From NCBI GenBank assembly GCA_947034885.2, contig OX344751.2, positions 15,624,001-15,688,000 of the forward strand: a stretch of DNA of 64,000 bases, written 5' to 3'. The first letter of the stretch is position 1. Every line of letters starts with the position of its first letter. Under the pieces are notes generated by a model. The model ran no database searches, was not told the DNA's origin, and was given only the letters and a program-made list of their open reading frames with translations. Shown here in pieces: positions 3,355-64,000 of this stretch. The DNA comes from Thuidium tamariscinum (lineage: Eukaryota > Streptophyta > Bryopsida > Hypnales > Thuidiaceae). The position numbers and the translations under genes were made by a program.

Positions 3355-3611
3355 AAGGATTTTTTTGGTAGAAATTGAGCTAAATGTAGCCAATTTTTAA
3401 AAACGCTGGTTGGAACTTGGAATACCTTTGGCACATTAATTCCTACCAAGTAATTATTAAAAATTGGAAGGACAAATATGGTAGTTCAATATTTATTGAG
3501 GCCCTTAAATGCCGACAAGGACGTTCGTTGTCCAATGGATGACAAAGAATCCTCCTAGTAGGATAGAAGTGCAACTAAGGTAAGTAGAACCACCTATGCT
3601 GGATCACTTAA

Positions 3612-4576
3612 CCCTTCATCGCCTAAGGGGACGAATAGTGGCCTCACATAGTCTTGTAGTCTGATTCAAATTGATGTAACTTTTGCATCCAATGTCCAAA
3701 TTCAATAAAAACTTGTTGATAAAGTTGTGCATTCAAGTCTAGTTTGTGTAGTAAAATTTTCAAGTCAATCCAAGAGGTACAAATATTTTGGGAGCCAATC
3801 AAAGTTCACAGGTTCATTTTGAATTCACTAAACTGCAATTGATGGCTGCAACTTCGGGGGCTTGTATCTCCTTCATCCAATGTTTTTTTCCAATAAAATT
3901 TGTTGGGTTATGAGCCTTTAGAAGTCTAGTTATTGTGGTCAAATTATCATGGCAATCCAAGTTGTTTTGAATGTTAGGGAGCAATTCAAAGTCCAAAAGC
4001 CAGACATTTTTTGATTACAGTGAACTTCGGCGGCCTCATACAATGTTTGTTTCTAATAATTTTTGTTGGGAAAGTTGCGCATTGTAGTCTAGTTTGTGTG
4101 GCTAGAATTTCATATCAATCCAAGAAGTTATAAGTGACTAAGAAGCATTTTAGTAGAAGGAGGTGCAGTCGTAGATGCGTTTTTTGTACCCTTTTTTGTT
4201 ATTTTTTTGACTCCATTTCAAAGTTATTTTGCAAAAAATTCAAAGCATTTGCATAAATTTTTTTTCCACCAATGTGTTTTTATTTTGGTTTTGAAATACT
4301 TTGTAATTTAAAGTTTGTTCATTTGAGTAGGTTTAGGATTTAGATTTCACCTCCAAATGTGTTTTTAGGGAAATTTCAACATCTTTTTCAAGACTTAAAC
4401 ATTATGATCATGCAATCTATGCAGCCAAATGACTCCAAATTTGATCCACATCCTCTACAACATGCACACTACAAGATTATACGGTTGGGATTTTCATATC
4501 TTACTGACATTTAATTTTATAAGGCTTGAAAAGCAAAGATGCTTTTAGACCCATCTGGAGTTTAGGTGATGAAGGG
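3612..4576. mobile_element. TTAA-flanked non-autonomous element, copy 1 of the ~965-bp type
   Basis: Perfect TTAA lies on both sides (3608-3611 and 4577-4580). The termini are inverted: the left starts CCCTTCATCGCCTAA and the right end reversed reads CCCTTCATCACCTAA, one mismatch in 15. The interior is non-coding and matches 38695-39655 in opposite orientation, for example the stretch around a 'TTCATCCAATG' motif and a 'CAATCCAAG' motif. The 4-base TTAA plus CCCT end is the piggyBac-type layout. No transposase is present. Confidence 0.8.
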
Positions 4577-4580
4577 TTAA

Positions 4581-5113
4581 GCAATTCAGGAACAGATGAT
4601 GAGGAGATGAAGCTATGCAAATTTTTCCCATGTAAAAAGATAGGAAATATGGGGATTGCAAATTTTTTGTAATTTTATTTCCAAAATTGAAATTACTATT
4701 ATTTTTGGAAGCCAAAAAGTGCATTGAATGCATAGCCAATGTCTAGAGTCTTCTAATTTGGATAATAGCCAAGCCTACTACTTCCTACTTTGTACTTCCC
4801 ACACACTTTAAGACATTTTGGAACATGTGTCATGACCTTATTAGTCCCAACCTTGAAAATAGAGAAAAGGTACATTCCAAGCTTTAATTGCAATCTCTTC
4901 TAACCTTGGTTACAAATAGACGTGTCCTATAGGTTGGATATGGGTCCTAAATCAGGAATAGGTGGTTCTACCTTACTCATCCTCTAAATTGTGTTGCAAA
5001 AAAAAGGAAGTCTTTTATAGTAGTTTGACTTCCAATTAGTACTCTTGCAATTTTTAAACCAATGATTTGCATAATAATCAAAGGGATGATTTCTATAGTT
5101 ACCAATCTATCTT
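4581..5113. other. AT-rich spacer
   Basis: No gene, RNA or clear repeat boundary is seen here. A short minus-strand open frame (4545-4739) straddles the end of the preceding element and is not convincing. Confidence 0.4.
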
Positions 5114-5117
5114 TTAA

Positions 5118-5762
5118 CCTATAAATGCCCAAGGCACCAAAATATGGTGTTTGCAAAACTTTGAAGATAAATAAAACCTAACCAATTTTCTATTTTAGTA
5201 GTTTATGTTTTTGAAAACTTTTTTTTAACTCTAGTTCAAGCATCAAAAATCTGATCTTGAAAATGATTGATTATGATTTTATTATTCAAAATTTTGTATA
5301 AGGGTGTCCATTGCAATTTTGACTTTTGGGAGTGTTGAAGACTCTTAGAAATGAGCGTCAAATACACTAGATTTTAGAGAAAAAACCTCATTTGAAATTC
5401 ATTTAAAAAAAATGTGGAATAGGTTTTGAGAAGATACAAATTGATTGGAGTTATGCATGTTAGGCACTCTCACCTCAAATTTTTGTGGTGACCAAATTTT
5501 TAGATTTGACATGTGAAAAGAGGATCAAAAGACTTCAAGTCACTTTTGCAATTTTACCCCCTTCATGATCAAACATTATAATTTTTCAATCCATAAAAGG
5601 TGTTGTTGTATTTTCTTTTCTTAAGTGATCTCTAACATGTCTAGTTTGAATTTGTATGGTTACATTTAAAAAAAAATTGATATAGCTTATAAATTTTTCG
5701 GCTTTTTGTTCACTTTAGATTAAATTCCTAGAAGCTCAAAAAAGGCCTTGGGCATTTAGGGA
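5118..5762. mobile_element. TTAA-flanked non-autonomous element
   Basis: TTAA is present at 5114-5117 and 5763-5766. The inner inverted ends are strong: the left runs CCTATAAATGCCCAAGGC and the right end reversed runs TCCCTAAATGCCCAAGGC, sharing AAATGCCCAAGGC. The 645-bp interior is AT-rich and has no coding capacity. It belongs to the same broad TTAA group but differs internally from the 930-bp and 965-bp types. Confidence 0.7.
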
Positions 5763-5984
5763 TTAAGGGTTTATAAAAAACTACTTGGCAATCATTATAT
5801 AATTTTTTTTTAAAAACTTATGGCAAGTCTTCAAATAATCTTAGAAATTGAATGGTTCATTACATAGGACAATGATAGTCGTGATGTTCAATGAATTCAT
5901 TTCTTTTCATAGTGTCCTTGCTTTCTTGTTAATCCATGAAGGCTAGACGTGTATTTGGAGCAGAAATTGTAAAAAAATTACCAC

Positions 5985-6640
5985 GTATGGGAGGAGGTCC
6001 AGAAACCGACCATCTAAGGGCTGGAACAAAATTTTGGGCAGGTCAAACATCTTGAAATATTTTTCAGAGAATTTTCCTTGAAAGACAGCTTGAATAGACA
6101 TCTAACCCAAGTCATTTCATATTTTTTGGAGCTCTCTAGAATTAGTTATCAAATTCTGAAGTTGAAAGGGCATAGGGCTCTAAAATGGTGCCCTAGCTAA
6201 AATGTACACTGTCAGTACACTGCTGAAGGCTATGAAAATGCAACATGTACAAGTACTGTACATTTAAGATAGGGCACCATTTTAGAACCCGCTCCATTCA
6301 AGAGCCTCCTCCTATACATACTCTTCTCATGTTTCTTGAGTTCAATCCTTTGAAGGTCAAATCAATGCACAATGAATGTACATTATTCAGTTCCCAAGGC
6401 TGGCTTGTACAAAAATCAATGCCAGAATGTGCTGCCATAGAGAGTAAGGTAGGAGGTCCATAAAGCCACACTCTAAGCACTGAAGCTGAATTTTGGGGAG
6501 GGAAGACATCTTGAAATATTTTTTAATAAATTTTCTTTAAAAGACAAGAGGAAATGACATCCAACCCAAGTTGTTTCATATTTTCTGGAGCTTTGTGGAA
6601 TTAGTTATGAAATCTTAAAATTGAAATGCCTAGGGCTCTA
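5985..6640. repeat. Duplicated repeat unit with embedded hairpin
   Basis: Two diverged copies of one unit lie in direct orientation (about 5985-6200 and 6447-6640). They share phrases such as ACATCTTGAAATATTTTT, CAACCCAAG and AGGGCTCTAAAA. A hairpin element sits between them at 6179-6286. An inverted copy of unit plus hairpin lies at 42862-43160 and a partial copy at about 41110-41235, so this is a dispersed family. Confidence 0.7.
6179..6286. mobile_element. 108-bp hairpin MITE
   Basis: The termini are inverted: TCTAAAATGGTGCCCT at the left and AGGGCACCATTTTAGA at the right. The complementarity continues inward (GCTAAAATGTAC against GTACATTTAAGAT). The interior includes CAGTACACTGCTGAAGGC. 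The same element, inverted and about as long, lies at 42862-42969. Confidence 0.75.
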
Positions 6641-7796
6641 AAAGCGACCACCTCCTAGAATGTACAAGGCCTAGAATGTACACGGCTGGGACATTTTGGA
6701 ATTGCAGAAAGCGAAATGTACCTCTGAGTCATGTTTGGTTCAAAATGCCCTGTCAGAGTTCGAGCCTCCCACCTTATCTGACTTGTGATGTGCCAAAGTA
6801 TTTTGGTAGGACATTAATACTTTTTCATATAAAGAAGTTAAATACACATATTTTCAACTTTTTAAAATATCGCTCCATCAAGATTCTAGCCCAAGATGTT
6901 CACCTTCTGAAAATCCTGGAGCCAATGTCGGGATACACTAGTTTATTCGTAAGGAGTCCAAAAATAGAAACCAACAGGATTCAACAACTCAAGACAATTT
7001 ATTAGTACGAACAAAACTCGGATGCTTATTCAGACGATTCTAGGAGTAAGTGATCTTAGCTAAGTTACCTTTCAGCTTCAGCTACAAATCCAGCAGTGTG
7101 AAGCTGGCTTGACATAAAAAATGCATGAAAACTGAGGTCATGCAAAAGCTAAGTTACAACTGTTTCACAGAATGTGTTCTAATTACGCTCTATCATACTC
7201 TGCAGGCTCTGTTAACGCAAGCTCATGCAGGTAATGGCTTCCACCTCGAACCCCCATTCGTATCCTTCACTCTTCCCGACGTCTGAGGGAACGGAAGGTG
7301 ACTCAAACTTTAGAATACGGTACTTCTACAATAAACGTTACCAGTTCGGCTGATGTTACCGACCCAGAATCCAGCTTGCTAACACTAAATTCTGTTGCAT
7401 CTCACCCTACATCTATATTACACACTTTGAGCCATTCTTCCTAAATACTAACTCGGATAGACACGAATGGATGTTCCTCTCTTGAGGCCAAAGCTTCTCA
7501 GTCTGGAGATCAAACATTCAACAGCATAATATAGCTTACAGCCATGTCAATTGCCAATGAACGCAAAAAATCACTCCAAATTCCAGGTTGAATTAGGGCA
7601 CACAATAAACCCTAAATCACGAATCAGTTCCTCTCTTGATGGACTAAGCTTTCAAAGACTGGGGACCATCAGGAAGTCACTACCGTCATATAGTCATGTC
7701 GATTGCTTGGGACCGCCATTTGTCACTCCGAATTCCAGGAACGAATCGATTTTCCTAAACCCTAAACCCTAAAAAACATCAAAAACCGCGAAAGGC
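6641..7796. other. Intergenic 3' of the methyltransferase, with local duplication and telomere-like motif
   Basis: No gene is supported. About 7473-7560 and 7626-7750 are diverged direct copies roughly 153 bases apart; both contain CCTCTCTTGA, an AAGCTT-containing segment, a 'CATGTC(A/G)ATTGC' motif and 'CACTCC(A/G)AATTCCAGG'. A run of nearly three CCCTAAA units lies at 7754-7773, just past the methyltransferase stop codon. The plus-strand open frame 7551-7772 covers these repeats and is not accepted as a gene. Confidence 0.55.
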
Positions 7797-14819: not shown

Positions 14820-15056
14820 CTGAAAAGAAAACCACATTCCTTGATGGGAAATGCAAAAACGAATGCCAATTGAGCAAATGTCGTATAGATCATCCGTTAG
14901 GGCAGATGAGTTCCCCGGAATCACAGGTTACGATGGTTTCCCTCGCTGGTAGGGAATTACCGAAAATAACCCACCTAGAAATTGGCGGTGCTTTGCATCG
15001 TTGGATAGCTTCAATGCCAATGATTATTGCAACGAGCCATTCTACTTTGTGGCTAA

Positions 15057-15593
15057 CCCCTAAAAGCCCAAGGGGTTAGGACAAAACACAAATGTGTTAT
15101 AAAATATAACTTTTATAACTTTTTTGAAGTTAGCATCAAAGAAGATAATGTAAAGCACAAAATGTAGAAAGTATCCATACAGTCAAAATTATAAAATTAT
15201 TTTTAGATCCTCTTCAAATGAATTTTGAAGATATAACTTCAAAAATTCACCAAAAATACAATTTCTATATTTAGTACATGATTTTTGTTTTAATTAGTCA
15301 AAATTGTGGTTTCTATTGATTTGTGAAAAATGTAAAAGATCTAGTAATGAGAGCATCAACACTTTCTCCAAATAGTAAGTTTTTCAACAATAGGCAATTC
15401 TAATCCTTTTGTGCTATATCTCTTATAATTTTTGTTTGACTATACGGATCTTAGTTTTGAATATAAATGTTGAAAGACAATCCAATTTTTTCAAAACTAA
15501 AAAGAAAAAGTTTGAAAAAAGTTTTTTTCTCCTTGAAAATTCTACCCAAAGTTAGAAGAGTGATCAAAAAATGGTCATTTGAGCACTTAGGGG
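15057..15593. mobile_element. TTAA-type non-autonomous element
   Basis: The left flank is CTAA (one mismatch) and the right flank is TTAA at 15594-15597. The left end reads CCCCTAAAAGCCCAAGG and the right end reversed reads CCCCTAAGTGCTCAAATG, sharing CCCCTAA. The 537-bp interior is AT-rich and non-coding. The element begins just upstream of the exons of the unassigned minus-strand gene. Confidence 0.65.
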
Positions 15594-15597
15594 TTAA

Positions 15598-25459: not shown

Positions 25460-28224
25460 ATGGTGAAGGAAACGAAAAGATCAGCTTCAGCAGATGGAGA
25501 CAGGCCGAGCTCAAGAGAGTTTGGAGGGCCGCGTTCAGCGAAGGGCTCATCAAAGTCGTCAATTCCACCTTCAGCAGAATCGCCCAAGTCATCCAAAGCA
25601 GGTTCCGAGGATGGTCCAAAGAAGCAGCCACTTTTGAGGGTTAAGCCATGGGCCTTCTCAGCAAGTGCGTCGCCGAAGTCCTCCAGAGGTGGTTCTCCTG
25701 CAGGAGATTCGCCAAAAGGATTAAGATCAGGTTGTCCATGTCCAAATGGTTCACCCCACTCAACAAGCTCATCAACACCATCGGCATTCAAGAAATGGGG
25801 CGCACCTTATGCCCAAACGAACAAAAATTCAACAAGGTCATGCTCACCAGATCTCACTATTGTGTCATTACAAGACGATTCTGCATTTTCCCCAAAAAAA
25901 ACACTAAAGAAAAGTCCACGCCCTTCAGCTGAAGCGCAAAGTAAACCTCCATTGCTAATTCTGGTTCACTAATATTAAAGCATGAGAGTCCGACACAGAG
26001 ATTTCCTTTCCTAGAAACCCTCCTGCTCGCTCCGCAAGCTTGAATATTAGTGATAGATATTTTTGGATTTCCAAGGTACCTGCCACCAAGATATAGACTT
26101 ACTTCTATACTTCCTAAATGTCAAAAGCGTTAGTTCTGTTTAATGTATCAACTGAACCATTTGATCTTCTTAGCTGATATTCAGTGGAGTTGATGATATC
26201 CCTTGAAAATTCACGTTATAACATCCAATAAGAGTGCAAGTCAAGATGGCAACCACCCCATTGATGCAAGTTATAAAACATGATGCTCTTTGATTCAGAA
26301 TGTATTGGCGGTTCAAACCCAGCTACAAAACATTTGATGCAAGTTACATTGTGCGCTGCGAATGCAAGAGCACAAGTTCCCGAGGTGAAAGCGCGCCAGC
26401 TTGTGTTTTATAAGACCACAGACAAAGAAAGCTTAATAGCAGAGCTAGAAAGTTTGAAGGCGGCAGTGGCTGACCAAACTTATCACCTCCAGCTTCACAA
26501 AACTTACCTCTTCAGTCTTCGAGAAAAGCATAAGTAATTTCCTTCTGTAAACTTCAGAAACCATAACATAAATCAATTTTGGTGTGAGTGTATGTGTGCA
26601 ATTCACACCAAAATTCATTGTGACAACATGTGAGGCATAGTTGCCTGATTCACCTCCTTATATAATGACATGATTTACTTCATGTGCGTAAATCGATTCG
26701 GAGGCTAACCATCATGTTGAAAGAAACACCCAATCTTGCAGTCAATTGGAGGAAAAGGTAGGAGCAATAGAAAGTATAGATGGATCTAATGCGCCAAGAA
26801 CAGGAGGTGAAGGCCGCTTACTTTCCAAAATTGCAGGTTTGTGCGTTCCGCCTCAACCCCCAATAACTTTAGGCTTTTGGATTGCACAAGATGCAAGGGT
26901 GGATGCTACCGGTAGCCTCCGTTGAAGAACATCACGTTGGTCTTCACAATAGTTTCTATCTACAGGCATGCGGATGAAAATTTCGAATCTGGAAGATGAA
27001 ATCACGAAATACCAGGAGAAAATCCAAAATCTCAAGTACAGATACCAAGTCTCTCTTACACGAGTAAGCCAACATAAGAGTCAGCAACCTTGTCACAATC
27101 TTTTTTTGAGCAAGACCTGGCATATGCTCGAGGGCTGATAGGCCTTGGTCTACACCAAACATTCATTCTAACGTTAAGAAAATGCTGAGCTGGGTCCTGA
27201 CATACACCATCGGTATTTGCAGGAGGCTACTATCCAAAGAAATATGGCTGCGGGCGATGTTTGGAGACTCCAAAAAGAGGTCCGGAATGCTAAGGATGTG
27301 CTCCAAACACTGACAAAACAGAATAGGAAGTTCTTGCATTCAAGGGACAAAATTATACCGGATCTTCAGCAATCACTATCCAAAAACCATAAGAAATTAA
27401 AGGCAGAGTATTCTCACTTCGTGTTTGATAGTGCCTTTCTCCAATTGGGTTTGCTGATTGTGAACTCAATTGTTTCTTGTACAGCGCTTGCACTCCTGAG
27501 TCCTGACCAAGAAAACTAAATACCTTCTGTGGCTGTCAGTTTTGTCCATGATGTAATTCAAACCAGTAACGCCTATATTTGTAAGTGCAGCATGGCATGT
27601 TTCCAGTGGCTAAGAATATTACTCAACCCTGTGACACCTTAAAACATAATAATTTCATCATTAACCCATTAAGGACCAGGTTGATGACTGCAAATGAATA
27701 TTTGGTTGAAAATGACATGTTTTCATTAGTGACTACTAATGACTACTAATGAAAACCTATCATTTTCAACCAGAGTCATCAACTAGTCATCGACCTGGTC
27801 ATTAATGGGTTAAGATTGATAGACAAATACTTACGGCACACAAATATTGACTGATTGCACATGTAGAAACCCTAGACTCACAATATAACATTTGCAGGGA
27901 ATTACTTTAAGCATCAGAGAAATAGAGAATCTATCTAAACAATGCACAGATGAGTCTTACGGGCATAAGAAAGAGGCCGCCAAGGCCAAGAGCCGGGCTG
28001 CCAGCCTCTACGACGAGGGGAAGAAAATGAGAGCTAAGCTGAAACAGGAGAGGGAACGAAAAAGGAAGACGCAGCAGGACGTTTGGATACTAGGATACGA
28101 AACATGCATGCTCGAAAAAGAAAACAGAGTCAATGACAAGCGAAGGAAAATCAAGGAAGCTGCCATGGCTAGAGAAGCAACAAGGGCCGCTGCAAAGGCT
28201 GAAAGAGAAGGAAAAAAATCGTAA
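25460..28224 (+). CDS. Uncharacterised coiled-coil protein with Ser-rich N-terminus
   Basis: Six exons: 25460-25940, 26299-26533, 26742-26836, 26966-27063, 27223-about 27420 and 27898-28224. The first four join in matching phases at GT-AG sites; the donor of the fifth is uncertain, although its reading frame and the last acceptor (phase 0) are clear. Exon 1 encodes about 160 residues dominated by Ser, Pro, Lys and Gly (SPKSSRGGSPAGDSPKG), probably disordered. The rest is strongly helical and charged (ESLIAELESLKAAV; MRMKISNLEDEITKYQEKIQ; DVWRLQKEVRNAKDVLQTL; KKMRAKLKQERERKRKTQQD). It ends in a basic, Ala-rich helix before TAA at 28222. I do not recognise the family; structural, microtubule-related or tethering roles are possible. 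A hairpin MITE lies in the last intron. In-frame coding-like sequence follows the stop. Confidence 0.6.
27661..27814. mobile_element. Hairpin MITE, copy 1 (intronic)
   Basis: The element folds back on itself: TTAACCCATTAAGGACCAGG at the left pairs with CCTGGTCATTAATGGGTTAA at the right, and the arms continue through TTGGTTGAAAATGA / TCATTTTCAACCA. A second copy of the same design is at 58107-58260. This copy lies in the last intron of the coiled-coil gene. Confidence 0.85.
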
Positions 28225-31847: not shown

Positions 31848-31851
31848 TTAA

Positions 31852-34800: not shown

Positions 34801-36420
34801 TAAAGTTTCATTTAAATAAAGTGTCTCAATTTTAATGAATACATATTACATTCTAAATTTAATTTCATAAATATAGTGAAATTTAAAAAAATTTGAGCTA
34901 TTGACAATGGACTTACATGACAGGTTGCAACAAGATATAGATACATTGTCTAGTACAACACGCAACATCAGATATCCTACACAACACCAAAACCAAAAAA
35001 TATATCTAACAAGACAACCCTAGTAGCAGTCTCATTGCCTTTTACAAGGTTCAAATTTTTCCTAATGTCTTGGATTTTGAATGGCACAATATGAACTTGT
35101 ATTTTTTCCATTCAAAAGATTAATAATTTTTTTTGAATACTAACTTTGAAGTTGCCAATGGCCTTGAGGAAGGTAGAAGCTTTTCAATGATTGCTCATTT
35201 GAACAAATTACATGATGCCTAGGTAAGAAAGATTCTATATTCCAAATTTGGACAACCGTCTTAGAATATCAAATGTCATTTTTAGGATTAAGCAATATTT
35301 GAGGTCAAAGTCAATGAATTTACTGCCCTAGAATTGAAAACAAACAAACCAATAGCTTGTGAGATTAACCAAGCAATTAGAAAATTTTGTTATTTAGGAA
35401 TTCCAAGCCTTTTGTTGTCTTCAATTCACTAGGAGGTTATTTTGGAGAGGCATCAATGTACATGCTCAATTCAATGAAACTTGATGAAATTCTAGTTGAC
35501 ATAAATGACATTAAACATTGACCTACATATGCCATATAACCACATTTTACTACATTTTAACTTCTGAAAGTTCACATTTAATCATTGTCATCAAGAAAAA
35601 TAAATGTTCATTAGGAGATAATATAAAGTATCAAAAAATCAATACAAAACTTCCAAAGATTTGTACAAATCTTCTACTATTACAATTATTCCTTATTTTG
35701 ACCCTATTTAAAATTCAACTTCTCCAAAATTTTGCCTAAAGTGTACTACTTCTATTTGTCAAGAGTCTCTAAATGTTTTTAGATACACATATTATCAATG
35801 CTTTGAAAATTCATAGTTTATTCATAAAGTGTCCAAAAAGTGTATACAAAAAGAATCTATACTACTAATTTGACTTTCAAGAACATTCAATACAAAACTA
35901 GTTAATTTAATAATGGATCAATGCTCAATTCCTTATTTAGACACAAATTAGGTAGAAATATTTTTAATGAAATAAATTTTTTAACAATTTCATCATGCTT
36001 AGAAGGCGTGCATCATAAAGTTGATGGATAAGGTAAGGTAAGGCAAAACTCATGGCAAAACTATTTGATTTCATTCACCCCTTTTTTTTTGTCAGAAAGA
36101 TGTCTCTTCAAGTGTTATCAATATGACCTTAAACCATTAGCTTTGAATGAGTCCTTTACAAATGTTGCACTATATAATTGTAAAGTAAATAAGCTTTTAG
36201 TGAATGGTTTTGGACTTTCTCAAGGTGCTTTAAACATGCATGTATTGAAAACTTTGAGGTTTTTAAAAGTCTAGAATTTGAAAATTCACAAAAAATACAA
36301 AAGTGTTTTAAATTTGTTAATTTATTCTCTAATGTTCTTGATTTTCATGTGTCTATACATCAAAAATAACATCTAATTGGATATTTGTAATTTTGACTCT
36401 ATCTATATACATTGGCTTCA
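31852..36420. other. Long AT-rich gene desert
   Basis: No gene is recognised in about 4.6 kb. Composition is extremely AT-rich at 32050-32250 and 34500-34640. Open frames at 33253-33507 and 35518-35739 are low-complexity and lack domains. I could not define element boundaries here, though old repeat debris is likely. Confidence 0.5.
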
Positions 36421-37549
36421 CCCCCATATGTTTTTGATTATGTTTTCACCAAAAATACTCCAAAATTGCTATTTTTAGTACAAAAAGGTTACTATTATGT
36501 GAGCATTGGAATGTGAGCCCATGAGTCTAAAAGACCATGTACCTATAGTATAAGTGTCTATATTATATAAACCTTCGATGATTATAGTTTATTTATGTTA
36601 AAAATGCCTATATTATAGGTGTTCATGTTATAAACACCTTCAATGGTTGTGGGATATTTACCTACATATATTCTTAAGGCTCACATGTTCACATGCTAGC
36701 ATCGTTGTTGGTATAAGAATCAAATTTTAGAAAACAAACATTTCTAAACACTTGTATCTATAGAATCTTGCAATAAGCTAGTTTGAAAAGATATAGAAAA
36801 AATTTCAAAAATTTCCACCTTGTAAATTGCAAGATATTGGTGTTTGAATTGACATAAATCCTTTTTTTTGTCCCTATAAAAAAACTAGACGGTTGCACTT
36901 TACAAGTTGATAATTGTATGAAAAAATTTCTAGGTTAGTGGTGCTTTTTTGAATTCATTCTTTAAGAAAAGTTGGCTATATACTTGAAAATTTTCAAATC
37001 ATTCAAAACCATACAAAATATACCAAAAAAGAAATGTAGAAAGAAGTAGAAAATGGTTCAAAATACTAAGTTGTTGAGAATTTAGTTATGAAATTGAAAA
37101 ATGCCAATTCCAATGGTTTAATGTAAGTTGTGATAAAAAAAACATTGAAAATTGAATTAAGTAAGGAACTTCAAATTTTAATGTAGAATTAAGAATCAAT
37201 AATTACTCTCAAACTAAATTTTCATAACTTTCACTTCATTAATCAAAATGGAATGATTCAAAGCTTGGTTAGCTTGCTACATAAATATGAATCTTCAAAA
37301 ATCAATTTTTATTTTGTAAGGTAATTTTCTACAAATTATTTTGAGTTGGCCAAATTGCCTTCTTCACAATGAAAATAACATATTTTACAGTAACTTTTTA
37401 TCTATATTGTCAAAAGTTATGAAAATTGTTATGAGTTACTTCTAGACCACATCTTGTGTAAAAATTTCAAAGAAAAAAAAATTCCATTCATAATAATCTA
37501 CCTAAAATTTCTATGTTGCCAAAAAAAATACCATTTGGTCTTTTAGGGG
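36421..37549. mobile_element. TTAA-type element, ~930-bp family, with a nested insertion
   Basis: The right end is GGTCTTTTAGGGG followed by TTAA (37550-37553). The left end is degraded (TTCA-CCCCCATATG). The body matches the copies at 37554, 50036 and 59144 (for example TTTTCACCAAAAAT and TTGCAAGATATT). About 36492-36705 is a foreign hairpin segment related to the 61113-61349 element, which explains the extra length. Confidence 0.65.
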
Positions 37550-37553
37550 TTAA

Positions 37554-38493
37554 CCCCTAAAGGTTTTAGACTATGTTTTCACCAAAAATGCTTTAAAATT
37601 GTCATTTTTTAGACAACTACCAAATTTTTAGAAATTAATATTTTTGGACAAAAATAACCATAGGATCTTTTAGAGCATAGGTTTAAGAAGATGTGGAAAA
37701 AATTTCAGCAATTTCCACTCTGTAGATTGCAAGATATTAGTGCTTGAAGTGACAAAAATCATTTTTTTACCACTGCGGAAATCCGGGCAGCTGCACTTCA
37801 GAAGACCATATTTATATGGAAAAATGTCTAAAATGATTGTAACTCTTTGGATTCATTTTTCAAGTAAAGTTGGCTACATTCTTGAAAATTTTCAGATCAT
37901 TTGGAATTGTACAACATATAGGAAGAAAATAGTAAGTAGAAAGAAGTAGAAAATGAGCCAAAATACTAAATTATTAACAATTTATTTATAGAGTTAAAAG
38001 AAGACAATCCCAATGGTTGTAATTTTGTGTTAAACAATATACACCCTATTTATTTATTTATTTATAATATTAAAAATTAAATTAAATAAAAAATTTCAAA
38101 CTTTTTTTGTAGTGTAGAGATTCTATAACTAGCCAAAACTACCTCAAACTAAAAATCCTCATAACTTTTGACTCATTAATCAAAACAAAATGATTCAAAG
38201 CTTTTTGCTTAGATAAAAATCAAAGAAACAAATTTCAAATTTTAATTTCTTAAAAAAGTGATTTTTGAAGAAGTTTTTTTTCTGCCCATGCTGCCCGTCA
38301 AGTAGAGAAAACTACATATCATACAATAACTTTTGCACTATGTAGTCAAAAGTTATGAAAATTGTTGGACCTTAAAGCTACTCCTTGAATACATGTTTTG
38401 TGAAAATTTCAAAAAATAAAAATAAAAACTCCATTTGTAGTGAGCTGCCCAAAATTGCTATGTTGCCAAAAAACGCAATTTGGTGCTTTAGGG
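37554..38493. mobile_element. TTAA-flanked element, ~930-bp family
   Basis: It is flanked by TTAA at 37550-37553, shared with the previous element, and at 38494-38497. The left end starts CCCCTAAAGG and the right end reversed starts CCCTAAAGC. The 940-bp body shares 'CCACTGCGGAAATCCGGGCA' and 'AGATTGCAAGATATTAGT' with the inverted copy at 50036-50961. No coding capacity. Confidence 0.8.
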
Positions 38494-38694
38494 TTAAATG
38501 AATGCCGTAATAAATGTTTCTAATGTACCTTGACCTTAAAACAATAATGATGACTAATAATGTGTGATGGATGATTTTCTAAGTTATTGTAGAAACAAAA
38601 AATGTTTAACTAATGGTTCAAAAATTTAATCATTTTTTAATAAGCACTAATCATAGAGGCAATGTCCTTTCAACATTCTAAATATGACCCTTAA

Positions 38695-39655
38695 CCCTAG
38701 AAGGCCCACAGCCATTTTGGGTTCAAAAAAATTGTAGCTTTTGAAGTGCTATAAATCTAAATGTGACTAAGTAATACACATCTTAACCGTACAATCTTGT
38801 AGTGAGCATGTTGTAGGTGGCATGGATCAAATTTGAAGTTATTTGACCACATAGATTGCAAGATTAAAATGTTTTAGTGTTGAAAAAGAATGCTGAAATT
38901 TTCCTAAGAACTCATTTAGAGGTGAAATTTGACTTCTAAACCTAAGCAAATGAAAAAACTTTAAACTACAAAGTGATTCAAAATCAGCATACAAACACAT
39001 TGGTGAAAAAAAATATCATTCAATTGACTCAATGCATTTGCAAAATGGCTTGCAAATGTCAAAAAATAGGTAAGAAAAGTTGCAAAAAACACATCTAGGG
39101 TTGAACCTCCTTCTACTAGAATGCACCTCAGTCATTGAGAACTTTTTGGATTGATGTGAAATTTAAGCGACGCAAACTAGACTAATATGTGCAACTTTCA
39201 CAAAAAAAATATTAGAATTAGACACTGTATGAAGAAGATACAAGCCGCCAAAGTTCACTGAAGTTGTAAAATGGCGGGATTTTGAATTTTGAATTGCTTC
39301 CAAACAATCTAAAGAACTTGGATTGACTTGGAAATTTCACCACAATAACTAGACTTCAGGGGGAGTAGAACCCAATAAATTTTATTCAAATCAAACATTG
39401 GATGAAGGAGATACAAGCCCCTGAAGTTGCAGTCATGAAGTGCACTTTGGTGAATCACATTGAACCTCTGTGAACTTCGATTGGCTTCCACACAATCATC
39501 ACCTCTTAGATTGATCTGAAAATTTTACCACACAAACTAGAATAATAGGTGCAAATTTTCTAACAAGTTTCATTGAATTTGGACATTGGATGCAAAAGTC
39601 ATAGCACTTTGAATTCTATGAGAGGCCACTTTTTGGCCCCTTGGACGGTCTAGGG
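38695..39655. mobile_element. TTAA-flanked element, ~965-bp type, copy 2
   Basis: Perfect TTAA at 38691-38694 and 39656-39659. The ends are CCCTAGAAGGCC and, reversed, CCCTAGACCGTCC. The 961-bp body is an inverted homologue of 3612-4576; shared words include 'CAATCTTGTAGTG' and 'ACATTGGATGAAGGAGATAC' in recognisably diverged form. No transposase. Confidence 0.8.
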
Positions 39656-39907
39656 TTAACTTCACTTCTTTGGTGCCCATTAGAGAGCAATCATGGGTTG
39701 TCTATAGGATGTCCATGACTCCACTCCATAAATGCTATTCGAACGTTAGGACAAACTACTTTAGAAATTCACAAAAATTACAAGTTTATTTAGAAAACTA
39801 TAATCCCATTTGAGTTTGATTTGAGAAATAAGCATTTAATAGGCTTCTCTACCTTATCTCATGTAATATTTTCAAGCCGCCTCCAAATTTTTAAGTATTA
39901 AAGTACT

Positions 39908-42861: not shown

Positions 42862-43160
42862 TCTAAAATGGTGCCCTATCTTAAATGTGCAGTACTAGTA
42901 CATGTTGCTTTTTCATAGCCTTCAGCAGTGTACTGACATTGAATATTTTAGCTAGGGCACCATTTTGGAGCCCTATGCCCTTTCAACTTCAAAACTTGAT
43001 AATTAATTCCACAAAACTCAGAAAAATATGAAACGACTTGGGTTAGATGTCAATTCTACTTGTCTTTCAAGAAAAGTTTACTGAAAAATATTTCTAGAAG
43101 TTTTACCTCCTTGAAATTTTGTTTCAACCCTTAGATGGTCCATTATAGGACCTCTTACCT
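42862..43160. repeat. Hairpin MITE plus flanking repeat, inverted copy of the 6-kb unit
   Basis: 42862-42969 is the hairpin element (TCTAAAATGGTGCCCT ... AGGGCACCATTTTGGA), an inverted counterpart of 6179-6286. Sequence on to about 43160 reproduces the neighbouring repeat of the 6-kb locus in reverse orientation. Confidence 0.75.
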
Positions 43161-45295: not shown

Positions 45296-45339
45296 AATGT
45301 ACCACAACTATGTTGGAAACTACAATGTAATTCATCACT

Positions 45340-47053: not shown

Positions 47054-49025
47054 AACTATGTAGTCTAAAATTTAAATTAGTCATAGATTTTTGAAGTCTA
47101 TAACCATCTAAGTTGTTTCAAACTAAGAAATCTGAAATCTAAATTTGTCATAGGTTTTTTTAAATCTATATGAGTCCTAGATGTCTAAAATCTATACCAC
47201 TCCTAAATGTAGTTTTTAGTTCAAATTGTGCGGTCTAAAAAACAGCATATGGAATACTACCATTTTGACAAAATTTGCGATAATGCCAAAATCAAGTGAG
47301 ATTTTTGCAAAAACTTGCCAAAGGATATTTGGCTATTTTTAATACAATGTGTGATTCTTGGTAAGGGCCTTTATATTACAATCATGACCAAGTAATATGC
47401 CAGGATATAACTTTTGATGAAATGTAATTAGAACAAGAAAAAAGGACTAGGCCAAGTTGACTTTATAAATTATATGGAGTACTCCGTAATAGTCTTCACA
47501 ATTGAAGAGTGACTAAGGCTCAAATTGGTGGAGAAAATTATGTAGAGTTCTACAAGTTGTAAAATGGATATGGTTTCATAGTTATTAAAATTTTGTTGCA
47601 CAAAAATCTTTTCTTGACCTATCAACCTCTTTGCAAGCTGAAATGGATTTTGAGAAATTTGGGCATTAAAAATGAGGCATTCAATTTATTTAGTTTTCTT
47701 CATATTTTTTGAGGGTAGAAAAACAAACAAACTTGTAGGGAATCTATTTTTTTTAAATATCAAAATCCAACACATGAAAAGAAAATTAATTGCTTTGAAG
47801 GCTATTGGGCCCAAAATTGGGTGGTGAAGTGCAACATCATTTTGCTTTAAAAATTTGTATAATTCCTCCTACTATGAAACTCTCCTAAGGACATCACTAG
47901 ACAATACTTTAGAAACAACATGAACCTATTATAAGGTACATTTTAAAGATTGTAGCTAATAATTTAAAAAATATTCAAATTACCATAGCATTACCTTTTG
48001 TCCTTTTTGAGGCAAATTGTATTACAACTACTATACAATACATTGTAGTGATCTATAGTATAGAAAATCTATACAAGGGATAGTCTAAAAAAAGAAAAGA
48101 GACCTACATGAGGAACTTCCATTTTTTCATTTGCAAATATAGGAAATAGTCAACGATGTCTCATTTTGGATTTTTTATTTTTCTAAATTGGAACTTTCAA
48201 TGTAGAATACCTTAAATCATAAACTTTGAAACCAATCTATTTGCCAATACATTTTGTAAGATTTTGGATCCTAAACGACTACATCTATGAATGCATAAGT
48301 TAGATTTAGCAAATATAATACTACTTGTAGGATTCTTAAGTTTTGTCTTTTTTCTCCTATAGTACATGATTATATGATTCACTTATATAATTTGTTTGTG
48401 TGAATCGTTTGATATAGGATGTTTGCATAAGTGCTATGTGTGTGGTTTGTATTCAATAGTAATTTATTAGAGTGTATGTTTTGTACCAATCAACCCTAGA
48501 TTTGCATATATATTTTTGGATAATAACAAGGACATGTTTAAATACCCCAAGTTTCAATTTTAACTACCATATGGGGTGTGAAAATGGAAAAAATAGAAGT
48601 ATAAAAATTAGGGACCGTTTTTGTGAAATAATAGCTAAATCTTTCTAATATAAAAAGTTTCAAGATACATATATATAAATTACACAACGCTAAGTGAAGT
48701 ACCAAGGGAAGCTCTACTTGTGTATAAAAATCCTAAATCATATTTGCAAAGAAAATTTGAATTAGGGGAACCAAAAGCTCTACAAAACCACATTGTCTGA
48801 GTAGTCTTGAAAAAAAACATTTTCCTTTCTTTTGGAGGCTTTGTTCACATACATATATTTTCTTCAAACTCCAGAATTTTACTAGTCAAGAATAAAATCT
48901 TACCACTAAAACTTCTAAAAAATGGATAAAATTTGATCATTGCAATAGCCCTTTTTGAATGAATAAATTTTGGGTAGTCCTATGAATATTTGTCAATTTC
49001 TAGTACATGAATCTTTAGGTGCTAA
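47054..49025. other. AT-rich intergenic region
   Basis: No gene is recognised. The sequence near 47045-47230 repeats 'AGTCTAAAATTTAAATT(A/T)GTCATAG'-like phrases three times in short order, a weak local repeat. Nothing else could be bounded. Confidence 0.45.
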
Positions 49026-49619
49026 TCCCTAATTAAAAACTCTTTTTAATTTGAAATATTTTTTGGGATTTTTGGACATTCAATCAATCAAAGTGTCAAA
49101 TTTTTTTTATTTCTTTCAATTCTTTTTTGAGATTGGAAAATCAAACAATCTTTTAGGGAACTTTAAGTTTTACAAAGATTCAAAAGCTAGACAGAAAATT
49201 TCTTTTAACCTCTATTAGTCGAATTTTGGGTAGGTAGGGTAGAGTATTATTTTTCTTTGAAAATTTGCATACTTCCTACTAATTTGAGGCTTTAATCAAA
49301 TGTGAAGTCTTTAAATCTTTTAGAAAATTAGAATTTGAGTTATAGTGCTTGAAAGCGTAACAAAGCCACATTGTCAAAATCTAGGGCAATTGTGACAAAA
49401 ACATTGTGTTGTTCTTTACTTGGTCATAACTCATACATACATTTCTTTCACACCCCAATTTTTTCAACTAAGACACCTACACTACTCAATATTATGATTT
49501 TATGGTTACAAATTCTAAAAACTTCATAAATTTTGATTTAGAGAATTAGTTTTAGAAAGTGTTGTTTCTTAAATAGTTTCATTAGTATTTTCTAATTTTT
49601 GACTGAAGTAATTTAGGGG
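49026..49619. mobile_element. TTAA-type non-autonomous element
   Basis: The left flank is CTAA and the right flank is TTAA (49620-49623). The ends are TCCCTAATTAAAAAC and, reversed, CCCCTAAATTACTTC, sharing CCCTAA. The interior of about 594 bp is non-coding. Confidence 0.55.
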
Positions 49620-50035
49620 TTAAGATTGTGTCATTGAATTTTTAGGCCAAGTAACCACAAGGTCCCTCCAAGCTAGTTGATCTTTTCTTCCCATCCCCTT
49701 AAATTATTCATCATTGGATACTAACTTGGTTTCAAAATCTCTGTGTTTATCACTATTCAATGTACTATTTTGATGTGCTTCTAGTGATGGTATAATCCTT
49801 TTCTAATTCCATAGCAATGAAGAATTATGTTTATTTTGTATGAACCAACTTCCCTCCCATACCTTTCTATACCTTAAGTTAGGTTGTTTGTTCAATTTGT
49901 TACAAAGAGATCTTTGGAACAGTTCATCCTTTATTCACAATTTTGGTACTGTTGAAAAGCCCTCAATAAGGAAGAGTGCACGGGCTTCATTTTGTAGTGT
50001 TTGGACTGACAATGTGAAATGTTATTGAATTTTAA

Positions 50036-50961
50036 CCCCTAAAGGACCAACATGCCTTTTTTGGCAACATAGCGATTTTGGGCAGGTACGTGTGGCTACA
50101 GATTTTCATATTTTGGAACCAAACTTTAATAGAAGGTGTGGACGAGGAGTATCTTCAAAGCCCAACAATTTTTGTGACTTTTGACTACATGGTTGAAAAG
50201 TTATTGCATAAAATGTTGCTTGTTTCTCAACTCGGGCAGTTTGGGCAGATCAGAAAAAATCACTTTTTTTGGAAATAAAAATTTGAAATTGGTCTTATAG
50301 ATTAATATATAGATGGAAAGCTTTGAATCATTCCATTTGGATTAATGAGTCAAAAGTTATGAAGAATTTTAGTTTGCGCATAGTTATGGATTCTCTTCTC
50401 TAAAATAAACTTTGAAGTCCTTTATTTGATTCAATTTTCAATATTTTTGAAAAAGAATAAAAACATTGGGTGTAGATTGTTTATTACAACATTTGAACCA
50501 TTGGGATTGACATTTTTCAATTCAATAAATAAATTGTTACCATTTTTGTATTTTGAATCATTCTCTACTTCTTCCTACTTACTATTTTTTTTGTACATGT
50601 TGTACAATTCCAAATGATATGAAAATTTTCAAGAATGTAACCAACTTGAATTGAAGAATTAATCCAAAGAGTTGCAACCATTTTGGACATTTTTTCATAC
50701 AAATGTGGCCTTCTAAAGTGCAGCTGCCCGGATTTTCGCAGTGGAAAAAGAATGATTTTTGTAGCTTCAAACACTAATATCTTGCAATCTACATGGCCGA
50801 AACTTCTGAATTTTTTTTACATCTTTCCAAACTAGTGCACTAAAAGATCCTACGGTTACATGTGTCAAAAAATGTTTTTTTTTTCTGAAATTTGGTAGCT
50901 GTCCTAGAAATGACAGTTTTGGAGCAATTTTGGTGGAAACATAGTTGTGGTCCTTTAGGGG
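50036..50961. mobile_element. TTAA-flanked element, ~930-bp family, with paralogous empty site
   Basis: TTAA lies at 50032-50035 and 50962-50965. The inverted ends are identical for 14 bases, CCCCTAAAGGACCA. The 926-bp body is the reverse of 37554-38493. The flanks (49954-50035 and 50962-51050) form one continuous match to 55458-55605, where the element is absent and the sequence reads GAATTTTGAAGTTTC. Confidence 0.9.
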
Positions 50962-50965
50962 TTAA

Positions 50966-58106: not shown

Positions 58107-58260
58107 TTAAGCCATTATGGACCAAGTCGATGACTGCAAATGAATATTTGGTTGAAAATGATATGTTTTCATTAGTAGTTGAAGTGACTACTAATGAAAA
58201 CCTATCATTTTCAACCAAAGTCATCAACTAGTCATCAACCTGGTCCTTAAATGGATTAAG
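58107..58260. mobile_element. Hairpin MITE, copy 2
   Basis: Its ends TTAAGCCATTATGGACCA and TGGTCCTTAAATGGATTAA pair on opposite strands. The core TTTGGTTGAAAATGATATG / CCTATCATTTTCAACCAAAG matches the intronic copy at 27661-27814 along its full length. Confidence 0.8.
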
Positions 58261-58605
58261 ACTAGAAGTTGTTGGTCCATCAACAAGTTTTCTACAACAA
58301 TCCATTGACAAATTTTTTAATTGTATAATTGGATGGAAATGAGGGGGCTAATCAATTGAAATGCTTATTTTAAAAATAACAGAAAATAAATTATTTGCAA
58401 TTCTTTCTTAGTTGCTAAAAGGACCTTGAGTTGTCAAAAATATTTAAAATGTAAAGATGTATTTTAAAGTGCAATTTATACAAAATAAATTTGTGATGAT
58501 CCTCAAATAAAAGTTGTAAATTATATGGTCAGATCTATCATTATTCTCACCAATAAGTATTGAGTAAGTATGAGACAAAAAAATAAAAATTCTTTCCTAA
58601 TTTAG

Positions 58606-59139
58606 CCCCTAAGTGCTTGAGTGCAAAAAGTAGATGATGAATACATTGAAAATTAGATTTCTTTTTCATTATAGCTTGGATGAAAGTCATCTTAATTTTT
58701 AGAGATACTTTATGAAATTGTTGTCCTATTCAAAGGTTGGATTTGGTGTTACTAGAATTCATATTTTTCTAAAATTACAAGTGTATAAGTATGTCAAACA
58801 ATTGACCAAGACAAAATTGCATTGACTTTGGTTCAAACATACCAAAAGATCACCATATGAAGAGAACCTCATTTCAAATCTATACCAACAAAATTTACTC
58901 AAAAAATTACAATATTTTGCTTGTAATTCAATTTAAAAGGAATTTTGAATTTTTCCTTTGAAAATTTATAAAAAAATATTAGTCACAGCATTGGTGAATC
59001 TAACTATATGGATAGAATCTAAAACTAAAACTCTACAACTTTGATTTGCATCTCAATTCCAAAATATTCTTTCAAGTAGTACTTTATGATGATTTTTGTG
59101 AAATTATCAATTTTGGAGGTGAATCTCAATACTTAGGGA
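58606..59139. mobile_element. TTAA-type non-autonomous element
   Basis: The left flank is TTAG and the right flank is TTAA (59140-59143). The ends CCCCTAAGTGCTTGAG and, reversed, TCCCTAAGTATTGAG are inverted repeats. The first ~190 bases match the element that begins at 63812 in the same orientation. 534 bp, non-coding. Confidence 0.65.
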
Positions 59140-59143
59140 TTAA

Positions 59144-60113
59144 TCCTTGACTCTATTTACTCCAAAAATAGTCAAACCTAACTACCATTTTTAGTACCAA
59201 TACCAATTTATTTTTAAGAACATTTTTTGAAATTTAGAACCAAAAGATCTTGTCATAAACTAGTTTGAGAATATGAGCAAAGAGTTTTAGAGTTTTCCAC
59301 ACTATAGATTGAAAGATATTAGCTTTTGAATGCTCAAAAATAATTTTTTTCATGCTAAAAAGAATATGGTAGTGGTACTTTAGAAGGTGACAATCATATT
59401 AAAAATGGTCCAAAATGGTAGTGCTTGTTTGGGTTCATTGTTGAGGCCAAGTAGGGCACTTACTAATGTAGTGGGGTTCCCTATTTGTTTAAAAAAAAAT
59501 TAAAAAAAAGTAGGGCACACGTCTAAAAAATTTCAAATTATTTGGGATTGTACAATATATAAGAAAAAAATAGTAAGTAGAAAGAAATAGCAAATGATTC
59601 AAAATTCAAAATTGTTAAGATTTTATTTATAGAATTGAAAAATGAAAATCATAATGGTTGTAATTTTGTAATAAAAAATCTACATTCTAGTATTTTTTTC
59701 CCATAGAATATTGAAAATCGAATAAAATAAAGGACTTCAAAGTTTATTTTAGAATATAAAATCTATAACTCCTTACAAACAAAAACTTCTCATAACTTTT
59801 GACTCATTGATCAAAGTGGAGTATTTTAAAGTTTACCATGCATACATAAATGAAGAAAACCAATTTCAAATTTTTGTTTTTGAAAAATTAATCTTTTCGA
59901 ATCTACCTAAACTACCCATTTACAGAAAAAAAATAATATATTAGGCCATAACTTTTGAGTCATATTTCCAAATGTCTTGAATTTTAGTGCACATGAAAGA
60001 TATTCCTTGTCCACACCTTTTGTTCAAATTTGGGCCCAAAATATGAAAATCTCCAATGACATGTATTTATCCAAAATTGCTATGTTACCAAATTTGACAA
60101 GTTGGTCCTTTAG
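59144..60113. mobile_element. Degraded copy of the ~930-bp TTAA family
   Basis: It begins directly after the TTAA (59140-59143) that ends the previous element and runs to GTTGGTCCTTTAG near 60113. The body contains TAGATTGAAAGATATTAGC, GGTAGTGCTTGTTTGGGTTC and TGCTATGTTACCAAA, which correspond to motifs of 37554-38493. The right TTAA is lost (GATAATG follows). Confidence 0.6.
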
Positions 60114-60124
60114 AAGATAATGAA

Positions 60125-61112: not shown

Positions 61113-61349
61113 ACCATGGTTGCTAGTATGTGAGTATAGAAGTGTGAGCTTATAAGCCTCAAAGATCATGCACCTGTAGTATAAGTGCTTATATTATAGA
61201 AATCTTCTATGATAAGAGTATATTTATACTATAGGTACCTATATTATAGATATTTTTATTATAAACACCTTTAAAGGTGGTAGTATATCTACTTATATAC
61301 ATATTAGAAGCTCACATGCTTACATATTTATGCTCACATACTAGCATCG
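61113..61349. mobile_element. Hairpin element with an 11-bp target duplication
   Basis: TTGCTATTACA occurs directly on both sides (61102-61112 and 61350-61360). The inner inverted ends contain GCTAGTATGTGAG / CTCACATACTAGC. 237 bp, non-coding, with internal repeats of the type TATAGT(A)TAAGT. The duplication length (9-11 bp) suggests a Mutator-like origin. A relative sits inside the element at 36421-37549. Confidence 0.75.
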
Positions 61350-61360
61350 TTGCTATTACA

Positions 61361-63120
61361 AAATATACTTTATAACCTATGTGTTTGAAATTTCAATTAC
61401 CATTTTTGTATACATAAATGTTAAATTAAGCACATTCAACTAAAGTATTGTAGTACATATACATTATAATATATATGTAAAAATATACCAAATTGTATGA
61501 CATAAGGTCAATTTAAGTAAACAATCTAGTGCAATATTGAAAAATCAAACATCCAAGACATCCATTTTGGAAAAAAAAAATGTAATGTGAAGAAGGAAGT
61601 GGTAGCCTATATATTGTATTGTAAAAATTTCTATGAGACTTTGTTTTTAAAGTGACACTAATTTTACAATGACAATAATAATGTATAACAAGATGACCCA
61701 CTATATGAGGCCCTACAATGAAGCTAAGGATAGAACTTGAGGCTAAAGAATGGGGCCTTTACACAATAGCACCCGGGTGGTAGGCAATCCCATTGCTTTG
61801 ATCCTTAAATGATGTAGCAACCATCCCTAGGCCTTGGTTTTCAGTATTTCACATTCTCATGTTGGTTCCCATATGTATTGGGCAAAACATAAAACTATAA
61901 ACACCTTGGCAAAGTTTTAGAGCATATTATGAGATTATAAAAATAAATAAATAATTAAAAGGATAGAATCTATGCCTAAGTAAAGAACAAATTCTACATA
62001 TTCAAAATGAATACAAGTTCTTTCTTGTAGAAGGGTTTGTGTTAGATGTACAATGCTTCAAAAGTACACTTAAAGCTTTGGCTATTGGCAAAAGTAGTCA
62101 AGAATAGTTACCCTATGTTCTCGATTGTATTGTAAAGGATGTCTAATGGCAAGCATGTTTATTTTGCATTCTTCAATATCTTTCCTTCAATTTTATGACT
62201 AATTTTTTTACAAGGTGATAGAAATTTTAAAAGTACTTTTTGAGGATGTTGTGAACCACCATTTTTCTTCACGTTTCGAGAAATGGGAATCATAAACAAA
62301 GGTGTGAATTTACAAATTCAAAAGTATTAGTTCTAGATCAAACCACAATTGTTAGTTAGAATTTTTTTTGTTAAGATAACGGTATGAACATTAGGAGTTC
62401 ATGGAGAGTAAGTGAAAAGTGCAATTGCAAGAATACAAAGGATAAATTATTGGGAAAAAATAGGGGTTCTAAATAAAAATTACATTAAGGAAGATTTGGT
62501 AAAGTAACCAAATTAGGCAAATGGTAAAATGGTGTTAATTTTCTTTTTAAATACAACAAAGTTGAAAATGAAATTAGAATTAATAGGAATTTGGAAATGA
62601 AAGATAACTCGATTTAACAATTTTTTCACATCAAACTATTTTGAAAAAAATTACTCTACTATGCCTAAATTAGGTCTAAAGTTCTATATTGAATATAATT
62701 CCTTTGTCTTTGCTATGAGTAAGCAAGCTCTCATTTTCTAATCATCCCTTACCTTTTGAAGATTTATGCAAGAGAATGGATTTTGATATTTATAAAAACA
62801 ACCTCTCCACCCTATATCTTACATTTGGATTTCCTTCAATGTTGTGCCGTTTGCATTTTCTCTTTGTATAGAATAGGTAGAAACTTTTGTAGTGTACCTC
62901 TTTTTAGTGCAATCTAGTTAGTAATGGAGTTCGTAAGTGGGGCCAATTTGAATAACATTCTCTAAAAGATAGTGTTTGAAGTTGACATCTGTAAATGGCT
63001 ATTTGTTGCATCTCTTCGACATACAAAAGACTTTCTTAGAGCATAGTCTGAACACCTTGCACTAAAAGAAATTCTATTTGTATAGTCTTTGTGTATAGAG
63101 TAGCTAGCACCCATTTGTAG
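61361..63120. other. AT-rich intergenic region
   Basis: No gene is recognised. A small GC-richer patch at 61764-61840 stands out but fits no RNA gene that I could fold by eye. The rest is unstructured. Confidence 0.4.
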
Positions 63121-63473
63121 CATAAGAGGATTTTTGGGCCCCCAGAAGACCGTTTCAGGGGTGTTCCCCGAAATTGTTCCCACTGTTGCAGACCAGCCCC
63201 CTGCTGGTCTGAATTTTTGAATTTTGAAAAAAAAAAATTAAAATTTTTTTTCCAAAAAACTTCAGAATGTATTAAAGAGAAAAAAAATTGATAATTTAAA
63301 AAAAAAAAAAAAAATTTAAAATATTTGATATGTAATTAAAATTTATTAAAAATTTATTATTTTCTGACGTGGCAGTTGCTCGACCACATCAGCATCGCGT
63401 TCCTAGCATTCCCAATGCGTTCTTAGGGTTTGGGAACTCACAGTCTTGTACAGCAGCTGAAAATCCTCTTATG
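63121..63473. mobile_element. MITE, CATAAGAGGATTT family
   Basis: Its inverted ends CATAAGAGGATTTT and AAAATCCTCTTATG match over 14 bases. The interior has GACCAGCCCCCTGCTGGTC (itself a hairpin), GACGTGGCAGTTGCTCGACC and GGGAACTCACAGTCTTGTA, matching 57376-57695 in reverse orientation. 353 bp, non-coding. Confidence 0.85.
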
Positions 63474-63811
63474 TCACGAATTTCTAGCCACACTTTATTT
63501 TTTTTGAAGTCCCTTTAGATTTCTAAATGGTGATGCTTACTTACAAGCGGTCACTATGTAAAAATCCAACTTCAAAAGACTTGGTTCAAGGTTATGTAAT
63601 AGTGATTGTATATTATTTTCTTCAAAATATGGTGAAATTTGCTCATATATGAAATTTCAAAACATCCTAAAGGGATTAAGCACGTGGATAGCTTGCCTTG
63701 CCTAAAATGATCATATTTTGTACTATAACTAGTGCTTGGCACTATGACATGGACATTATGGTCTATAATTAGATTTTTAAAAATAAATTCCCCTATATCA
63801 TAGTGGTTTAA

Positions 63812-64000
63812 CCTTGAAGTGCTCTAGCATTTGGTTTTTGGACAATGTAAAAATTAGAAATTAGTTTTCTTTCTCATTACAACTTAGATGAAATTCATTC
63901 TAATTTTTAGAGTACTTTATAAAATTGTAGTCCTATCCAAGGGTTCAATTGGGTGTTACTAAAGTATGTATTTTTCCAAAATATTAGGGAAATTTTGAGC
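63812..64000. mobile_element. TTAA-type element cut by the window end
   Basis: TTAA at 63808-63811 is followed by CCTTGAAGTGCTCTAGC and then a body that follows 58606-58790 in order (GAAATTAGTTTTCTTTCTCATTACAACTTAGATGAAA-type region, TTTTTAGAGTACTTTAT, GGTGTTACTA). The right half lies outside the window. Confidence 0.6.

Follow-up and report, generated by a model that had tools for sequence, protein, structure and literature searches.

The piggyBac transposon, a tool in wide use, has been studied mostly in animals. Its ends begin with CCC and it has a C-terminal Cys-rich domain; animal piggyBac miniature inverted-repeat transposable elements (MITEs) are non-autonomous, retain no more than the ends and insert at TTAA. 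The Stowaway and Tourist MITEs of plants are short and AT-rich, occur near genes in thousands of copies, and insert at TA or TWA with transposases of the Tc1 or Harbinger type. Public protein databases reportedly contain moss proteins named after piggyBac. Here we analyse a stretch of 64,000 nucleotides from the moss Thuidium tamariscinum (the window; contig OX344751.2, positions 15624001-15688000, on C3 of a 363.2-Mb assembly of 19 contigs) that contains many short TTAA-flanked elements. Judging from their sequences, these are almost certainly non-autonomous piggyBac MITEs, which would be mobilised by full-length elements elsewhere in the genome.

Among the described systems, piggyBat of bats (PDB 9c0f) resembles the moss elements in its transposase, which matches that of locus L028 at 1.3e-23, and differs in its animal host; to our knowledge, piggyBat has no upstream domain of the kind described below. 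Compared with animal piggyBac MITEs, those described here have a plant host and include two large families with 3,575 and 8,807 candidate places, and they differ from Stowaway and Tourist in combining TTAA with the transposase family PF13843. The piggyBac of Trichoplusia ni (T. ni; PDB 6x67) is alike in three aligned aspartate blocks, as well as in the CCC ends and C-terminal Cys-rich domain known for piggyBac; the plant elements differ in carrying a long extension at the N terminus of the transposase and, in another frame, a conserved domain upstream. T. ni piggyBac (6x67, 6x68) also shares the TTAA target and short terminal inverted repeats and, according to PMC2874221, measures 2.4 kb with one open reading frame (ORF) of 1.8 kb, against 4.9-7.9 kb for the plant elements.

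The presence of piggyBac in plants has already been stated and is not new. Plants are mentioned in the summary of a 2023 paper (PMC10813416), a fern genome table gives PiggyBac as 0.00% (PMC6890710), a 2024 review includes PiggyBac among plant superfamilies (PMC10794571) and a 2022 review of land-plant elements has six terminal inverted repeat superfamilies and lacks the word piggyBac (PMC9033089). Among the literature matches listed, whose coverage mostly leaves out subscription journals, there was no account of piggyBac MITE abundance, young copies or the upstream domain in land plants.

Elements in the window

A preliminary description, made from the letters of the window, had listed nine elements next to TTAA, and all of them could be placed exactly, at 3612, 5118, 15057, 37554, 38695, 49026, 50036, 58606 and 63812. 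Their left flanks read, in that order, TTAA, TTAA, CTAA, TTAA, TTAA, CTAA, TTAA, TTAG and TTAA (TTAA in six of nine), and the right flank is TTAA in eight of eight (ends at 4580, 5766, 15597, 38497, 39659, 49623, 50965 and 59143), the ninth element (63812) extending past the window end. The same description had reported degraded copies at 36421 and 59144; this holds for the right end of the copy at 59140, whereas the right end of the copy at 36417 is intact. It had overlooked that intact right end, at 37553, and two palindromic elements of 153 bp. Thirteen elements were delimited in the window, summing to 8,563 bases (13.4%), and they are given here without strand:

3608..4580: piggyBac MITE, 973 bp counting both TTAA, with matching ends TTAACCCTTCATC
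5114..5766: piggyBac MITE, 653 bp, TTAA/TTAA, from flanks and ends
15053..15597: piggyBac MITE, 545 bp, CTAA/TTAA, from flanks and ends
27661..27813: palindromic MITE, 153 bp, TTAA/TTAA, with CCCATTAAGGACC-type ends
36417..37553: degraded 50032-family copy, 68%, with an intact right end
37550..38497: 50032-family copy, 77%, TTAA/TTAA, from family alignment
38691..39659: 3608-family MITE, inverted, 77%, TTAA/TTAA, from family alignment
49022..49623: MITE, about 602 bp, CTAA/TTAA, short terminal match only
50032..50965: 50032 MITE, 934 bp, TTAA/TTAA, ends CCCCTAAAGGACC, the most abundant family searched
58107..58259: another 153-bp MITE copy, 90% to that at 27661, TTAA/TTAA, from family alignment
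58602..59143: MITE, 542 bp, TTAG/TTAA, from flanks and ends
59140..60116 (right end approximate): degraded 50032-family copy, 76% over its better part, from family alignment
63808..64000: MITE truncated by the end of the window, left part present, 81% to that at 58602 over 139 bases

One TTAA is common to two of these elements, being the right flank of the copy at 36417 and the left flank of the copy at 37550.

A four-base TTAA target

Within the window, TTAA begins at 417 of the 64,000 positions (0.65%). We built a weight matrix from 25 element ends found elsewhere in the genome, scoring only 14 element-internal bases, so that it is blind to the flank. At 9 bits or more the matrix found 37 window sites, of which 13 are preceded by TTAA, against an expectation of 0.65%, and at 12 bits or more the proportion was 8 of 13. 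Lowering the threshold to 7.5 bits gave 14 TTAA-preceded sites, compared with 0, 1 and 1 in three Markov-shuffled windows. One of the training ends (L024) is a MITE end; the counts without it stay at 13/37 and 8/13.

Genome copies were also collected by their terminal motif CCCCTAAANGNCC, which occurs 10,023 times (5,036 + 4,987), compared with 88 occurrences (36 + 52) of the reversed control. Directly after TTAA we counted 8,349 of these ends (4,195 + 4,154; 83%) and none of the control (0 + 0); the window itself holds five such motifs, three of them after TTAA. These measurements bear on a rival in which the elements are Tc1/mariner (Stowaway, TA) or Harbinger (TWA) MITEs that have TTAA flanks from chance or AT-richness. 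Such MITEs are the usual short ones of plants, and with 37% G+C in the window TA-rich flanks are common, but it is the full TTAA that precedes 83% of the motif ends and that stands on both sides in 18 of the 20 copies read from the 50032 family and in all 11 copies of a young autonomous family (both described below). Target duplications confined to TA or TWA were not found, and elements with the same ends encode PF13843, so that we give this rival practically no credence. The proposal of a four-base TTAA target rather than TA or TWA, made in the preliminary description, is thus borne out.

MITE families across the genome

For the 50032 element, the genome search gave 8,807 candidate places. 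Scoring 40 of them yielded 43 matches: the element itself, 40 at 93-97% over nearly the full length, and two at 71-73%. Twenty of those 40 copies were read, namely the best-scoring ones, which are uninformative on older members; 18 are flanked by TTAA left and right, and the other two read TTAA/TTTA and TTAA/CTAA. Together with the window copy they have a mean pairwise identity of 95.1%, each lying 1.5-4.0% from the consensus. The 3608 family, with 3,575 candidate places, looks older, since its scored copies (40 scored, itself aside) are 79-89% identical. For the 153-bp family there are 200 candidate places, the scored ones, itself aside, being 88-94% identical. Elsewhere in the genome, a tandem pair of 50032-family MITEs with 81 bases between them occupies C1:7373240-7375166.

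Autonomous elements and their transposase

A search of the assembly with the DDE_Tnp_1_7 profile (PF13843) returned at least 116 transposase matches with E values of 1.4e-70 or better; of 658 candidates 116 were scored, and all 116 passed the cut-off. We read 20 of these loci, with 9.9 kb around each, among which L014/L015, L019/L020/L021 and L025/L026 are near-copies. The ends at these loci enclose PF13843: by an automatic criterion that asked only for TTAA plus 14 matching bases, the transposase gene lies between matching TTAA-CCC ends in 16 of the 20, with 4.9-7.9 kb between the ends, and inspection added both ends in L011 and L018 and one end in L016. The pair in L024 uses a MITE end and was not counted, a pair of MITE ends in L013 was dropped, and in L019 we took the pair common to its twins L020 and L021 over a slightly better overlapping one. 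Two pairs without CCC were dropped, a weaker one in L012 and an equally good, A-rich one in L017; all kept pairs begin with CCC. The majority terminal sequence is CCC[CT]TNA[AG][CG]GCC, with A at position 7 in 25 of 25 ends and G at position 10 in 24 of 25.

The transposase of L028 matches that of T. ni piggyBac (6x67) at 1e-27, and its three aspartate blocks, which we take to be catalytic, align with those of 6x67. Across the loci, the second and third aspartate motifs are each present in 18 of 20; the pattern of the first occurs in 20 of 20, in the wrong place in L014 and L015, and the true first motif of L014 is visible in the sequence. A C-terminal Cys/His cluster pattern was found in 14 of 20 loci and is missing in six, where the frames end early (L016, L023, L025) or show none (L017, L027, L028). 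A segment of about 65 residues within the N-terminal extension of the transposase is common to 9 of the 20 loci (weak in L009).

With TTAA flanks, CCC ends and PF13843 between ends of the same kind, the piggyBac interpretation of the window elements given in the preliminary description is well supported. As to how they move, we infer the transposition chemistry, the pairing of transposase and MITE, and the role of the upstream domain: full-length elements elsewhere in the genome would make a piggyBac-type DDD transposase, this would bind the MITE ends, and it would excise the MITEs and insert them into TTAA, with the four bases on both sides of the insertion.

A young autonomous family

The element of 5,096 bp at L020 (3089-8184) has 11 full-length copies, itself included, on C1, C2, C5, C8 and C9, as judged from 40 scored of 119 candidates. 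Eight have the full score, two are 5 bits lower and one is 9 bits lower, i.e. they carry at most about two mismatches, and the other 29 scored places match along part of the length, at 67-71%. L020 and L021 show no difference in 5,096 bases, and L019 differs from each of them at 2. Each of the 11 copies lies between two TTAA, and the bases beyond differ from copy to copy. Such near-identity fits recent movement, as a burst from one copy, there being no intermediates among the scored places, and the burst in turn could have followed a recent arrival or an escape from silencing.

Eight copies with a full score over the whole length are an extreme result, and one could suspect assembly artefacts or segmental duplications instead of recent insertions. 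We consider this very unlikely, given that the bases just outside the TTAA differ among the copies (20 on each side were compared by eye) and that the copies lie on five contigs. Duplication in place of transposition was rejected as the origin of the 11 copies on account of their distinct flanks at different TTAA sites.

Possible pairing of MITEs with transposases, and insertion sites

We compared the MITE ends with those of 12 autonomous elements over 20 subterminal bases. Four of the 18 MITE ends agree with an autonomous end outside the terminal 12 bases more closely than shuffled sequences do (p <= 0.004). The left end of 3608 and the right end of 38691, which belong to one MITE family and are not independent, each agree with L028 at 16 of 20 bases; the latter is nearly as close to others (L027, 15/20; L023, 14/20). 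The right end of 15053 agrees with L022 at 15 of 20 and the right end of 5114 with L017 at 13 of 20 (p 0.004).

Insertion sites were also compared with unoccupied relatives. At L023, an autonomous element (1421-7001) is nested in a 3608-family MITE, and the copies of this MITE in the window and at L018 are unbroken at the insertion site. With its two flanks joined, L031 aligns to a pair of unoccupied relatives: L052 at 77% and L049, about 41 kb from L031 on its contig, at 87% with one gap. For L039 and L041, the flanks joined in this way align to unbroken relatives at 80% and 78%. The check for empty sites, which the preliminary description had suggested, covered six relatives of four sites: all six show clean insertions with no extra duplicated bases, yet none, including the window and L018 copies compared with L023, has a letter-perfect TTAA. 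The slots read CTAA, CTAA, TTCA and TTCA (one base off), and TTTT and ATCA (two off). As no letter-perfect empty site was found, we infer the TTAA duplication from the flanks.

Several observations weigh against mobilisation of the window elements by piggyBac transposases. For fourteen of the 18 MITE ends, the 12 autonomous elements compared offer no clear subterminal similarity past the terminal motif, and the 50032 family has no autonomous partner among the 12. The six unoccupied relatives, which lack an exact TTAA at the slot, are about 77-88% alike. Finally, the 20 copies of the 50032 family that were read are the best-scoring and hence probably the youngest.

These points touch on a second rival, that the MITEs are Kolobok-type elements with a TTAA target, and that the piggyBac transposases are unrelated to them. 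The Kolobok superfamily also uses TTAA targets, so TTAA alone does not single out piggyBac, and no autonomous partner of the 50032 family was seen among the 12. Against a Kolobok origin, the PF13843 elements themselves bear CCC...GCC ends at TTAA, a motif as in the MITEs, and the four MITE ends with subterminal similarity resemble PF13843 elements. Going by the loci read, whose ends enclose PF13843, we regard Kolobok elements as an extremely unlikely source and retain piggyBac mobilisation as the best explanation.

A conserved upstream domain

A domain of about 100 residues, in another frame, lies upstream of the transposase ORF in 19 of the 20 loci (not in L017), a count that includes three seeds and some near-copies. 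An alignment of 14 of these 19 shows three invariant residues (L, L and P) as well as motifs around LDEDYLxSLP and ILGW. One member used as a query found 144 places genome-wide (150 of 245 candidates were scored). The domain lies on the same strand within 6 kb upstream of 59 of the 116 transposases (median 1.9 kb), and it is found downstream of none of the 116 and on the opposite strand at none.

Purifying selection on the domain is likely, because the ratio of nonsynonymous to synonymous divergence (dN/dS) is 0.06-0.16 in three pairs (0.16, 0.16 and 0.06), an imprecise estimate since their dS of 1.75-2.19 is near saturation. Synonymous sites are saturated in 14 of the 18 pairs with more than 45% identity, and one nearly identical pair gave 0.53. 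A Pfam search with the domain returned four chance-level families with one member each (best E 0.13), and a PDB search gave no significant match (best E 0.063). Donor and acceptor scores for splice sites between domain and transposase ORF gave no consistent answer; the domain may be either a first exon or a separate protein. Guessing from its position and conservation, we think its most likely role would be to cooperate with the transposase when the ends are bound or the complex is assembled.

We tentatively suggest that this plant could host a currently mobile piggyBac family that came by horizontal transfer or by the awakening of a single copy, its elements working together with an upstream domain that animal piggyBac lacks, which would make plant piggyBac a distinct two-part branch of the superfamily; we consider this conceivable rather than probable. 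In this plant genome, candidate piggyBac MITEs number in the thousands, transposase matches exceed 100, and the copies of one family are nearly identical. If still mobile, these elements would provide a native insertion tool for plants, traceless going by the known piggyBac mechanism, as well as a test case for how a plant responds to a TTAA-specific invader. The upstream domain would add a new conserved protein domain.

Genomic setting and other repeats

The host is a photosynthetic plant, the chlorophyll a/b-binding family being matched 49 times genome-wide, and the assembly includes ten contigs of 24-54 Mb. Contamination as a source of the piggyBac elements was rejected in view of these chromosome-sized contigs and the plant genes around the elements. 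In the window we found a BAHD-type acyltransferase match in two open frames (716-1669 and 1836-2465), a Methyltransf_16 gene at 7797-8513 and a ribosomal L3 match at 16552-17205 that is under the Pfam cut-off. An open frame of 519 codons with an RNase H domain (43748-45307) is probably part of a non-LTR (long terminal repeat) retroelement.

The window also contains other repeats. A repeat GATGACAAAGAATC...GGATAGAAGTGC hosts MITEs at window 3533-3577, L031 and L043, and a query containing it has 898 candidate places. About 250 bases from the element at 38691 there is a 1.08-kb hairpin (39908-40988) whose arms, each about 524 bases long and separated by 32 bases, are piecewise complementary at 84-97% and carry GGGTCATTGCAAGAAACACC at both outer ends; it may be a foldback element or a small-RNA source. 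A short MITE-like foldback hairpin, TCTAAAATGGTGCCCTA ... TAGGGCACCATTTT, is present in two copies, at 6175-6290 and 42859-42972. The element at 61121-61346 has inverted ends of 46 bases, TGCTAGTATGTGAG, and a relative (76%) of part of it is the repeat contained in the MITE copy at 36417 (~36487-36694). Short interstitial runs of the telomere-type sequence TTTAGGG occur at 21505-21660 and 7743-7775.

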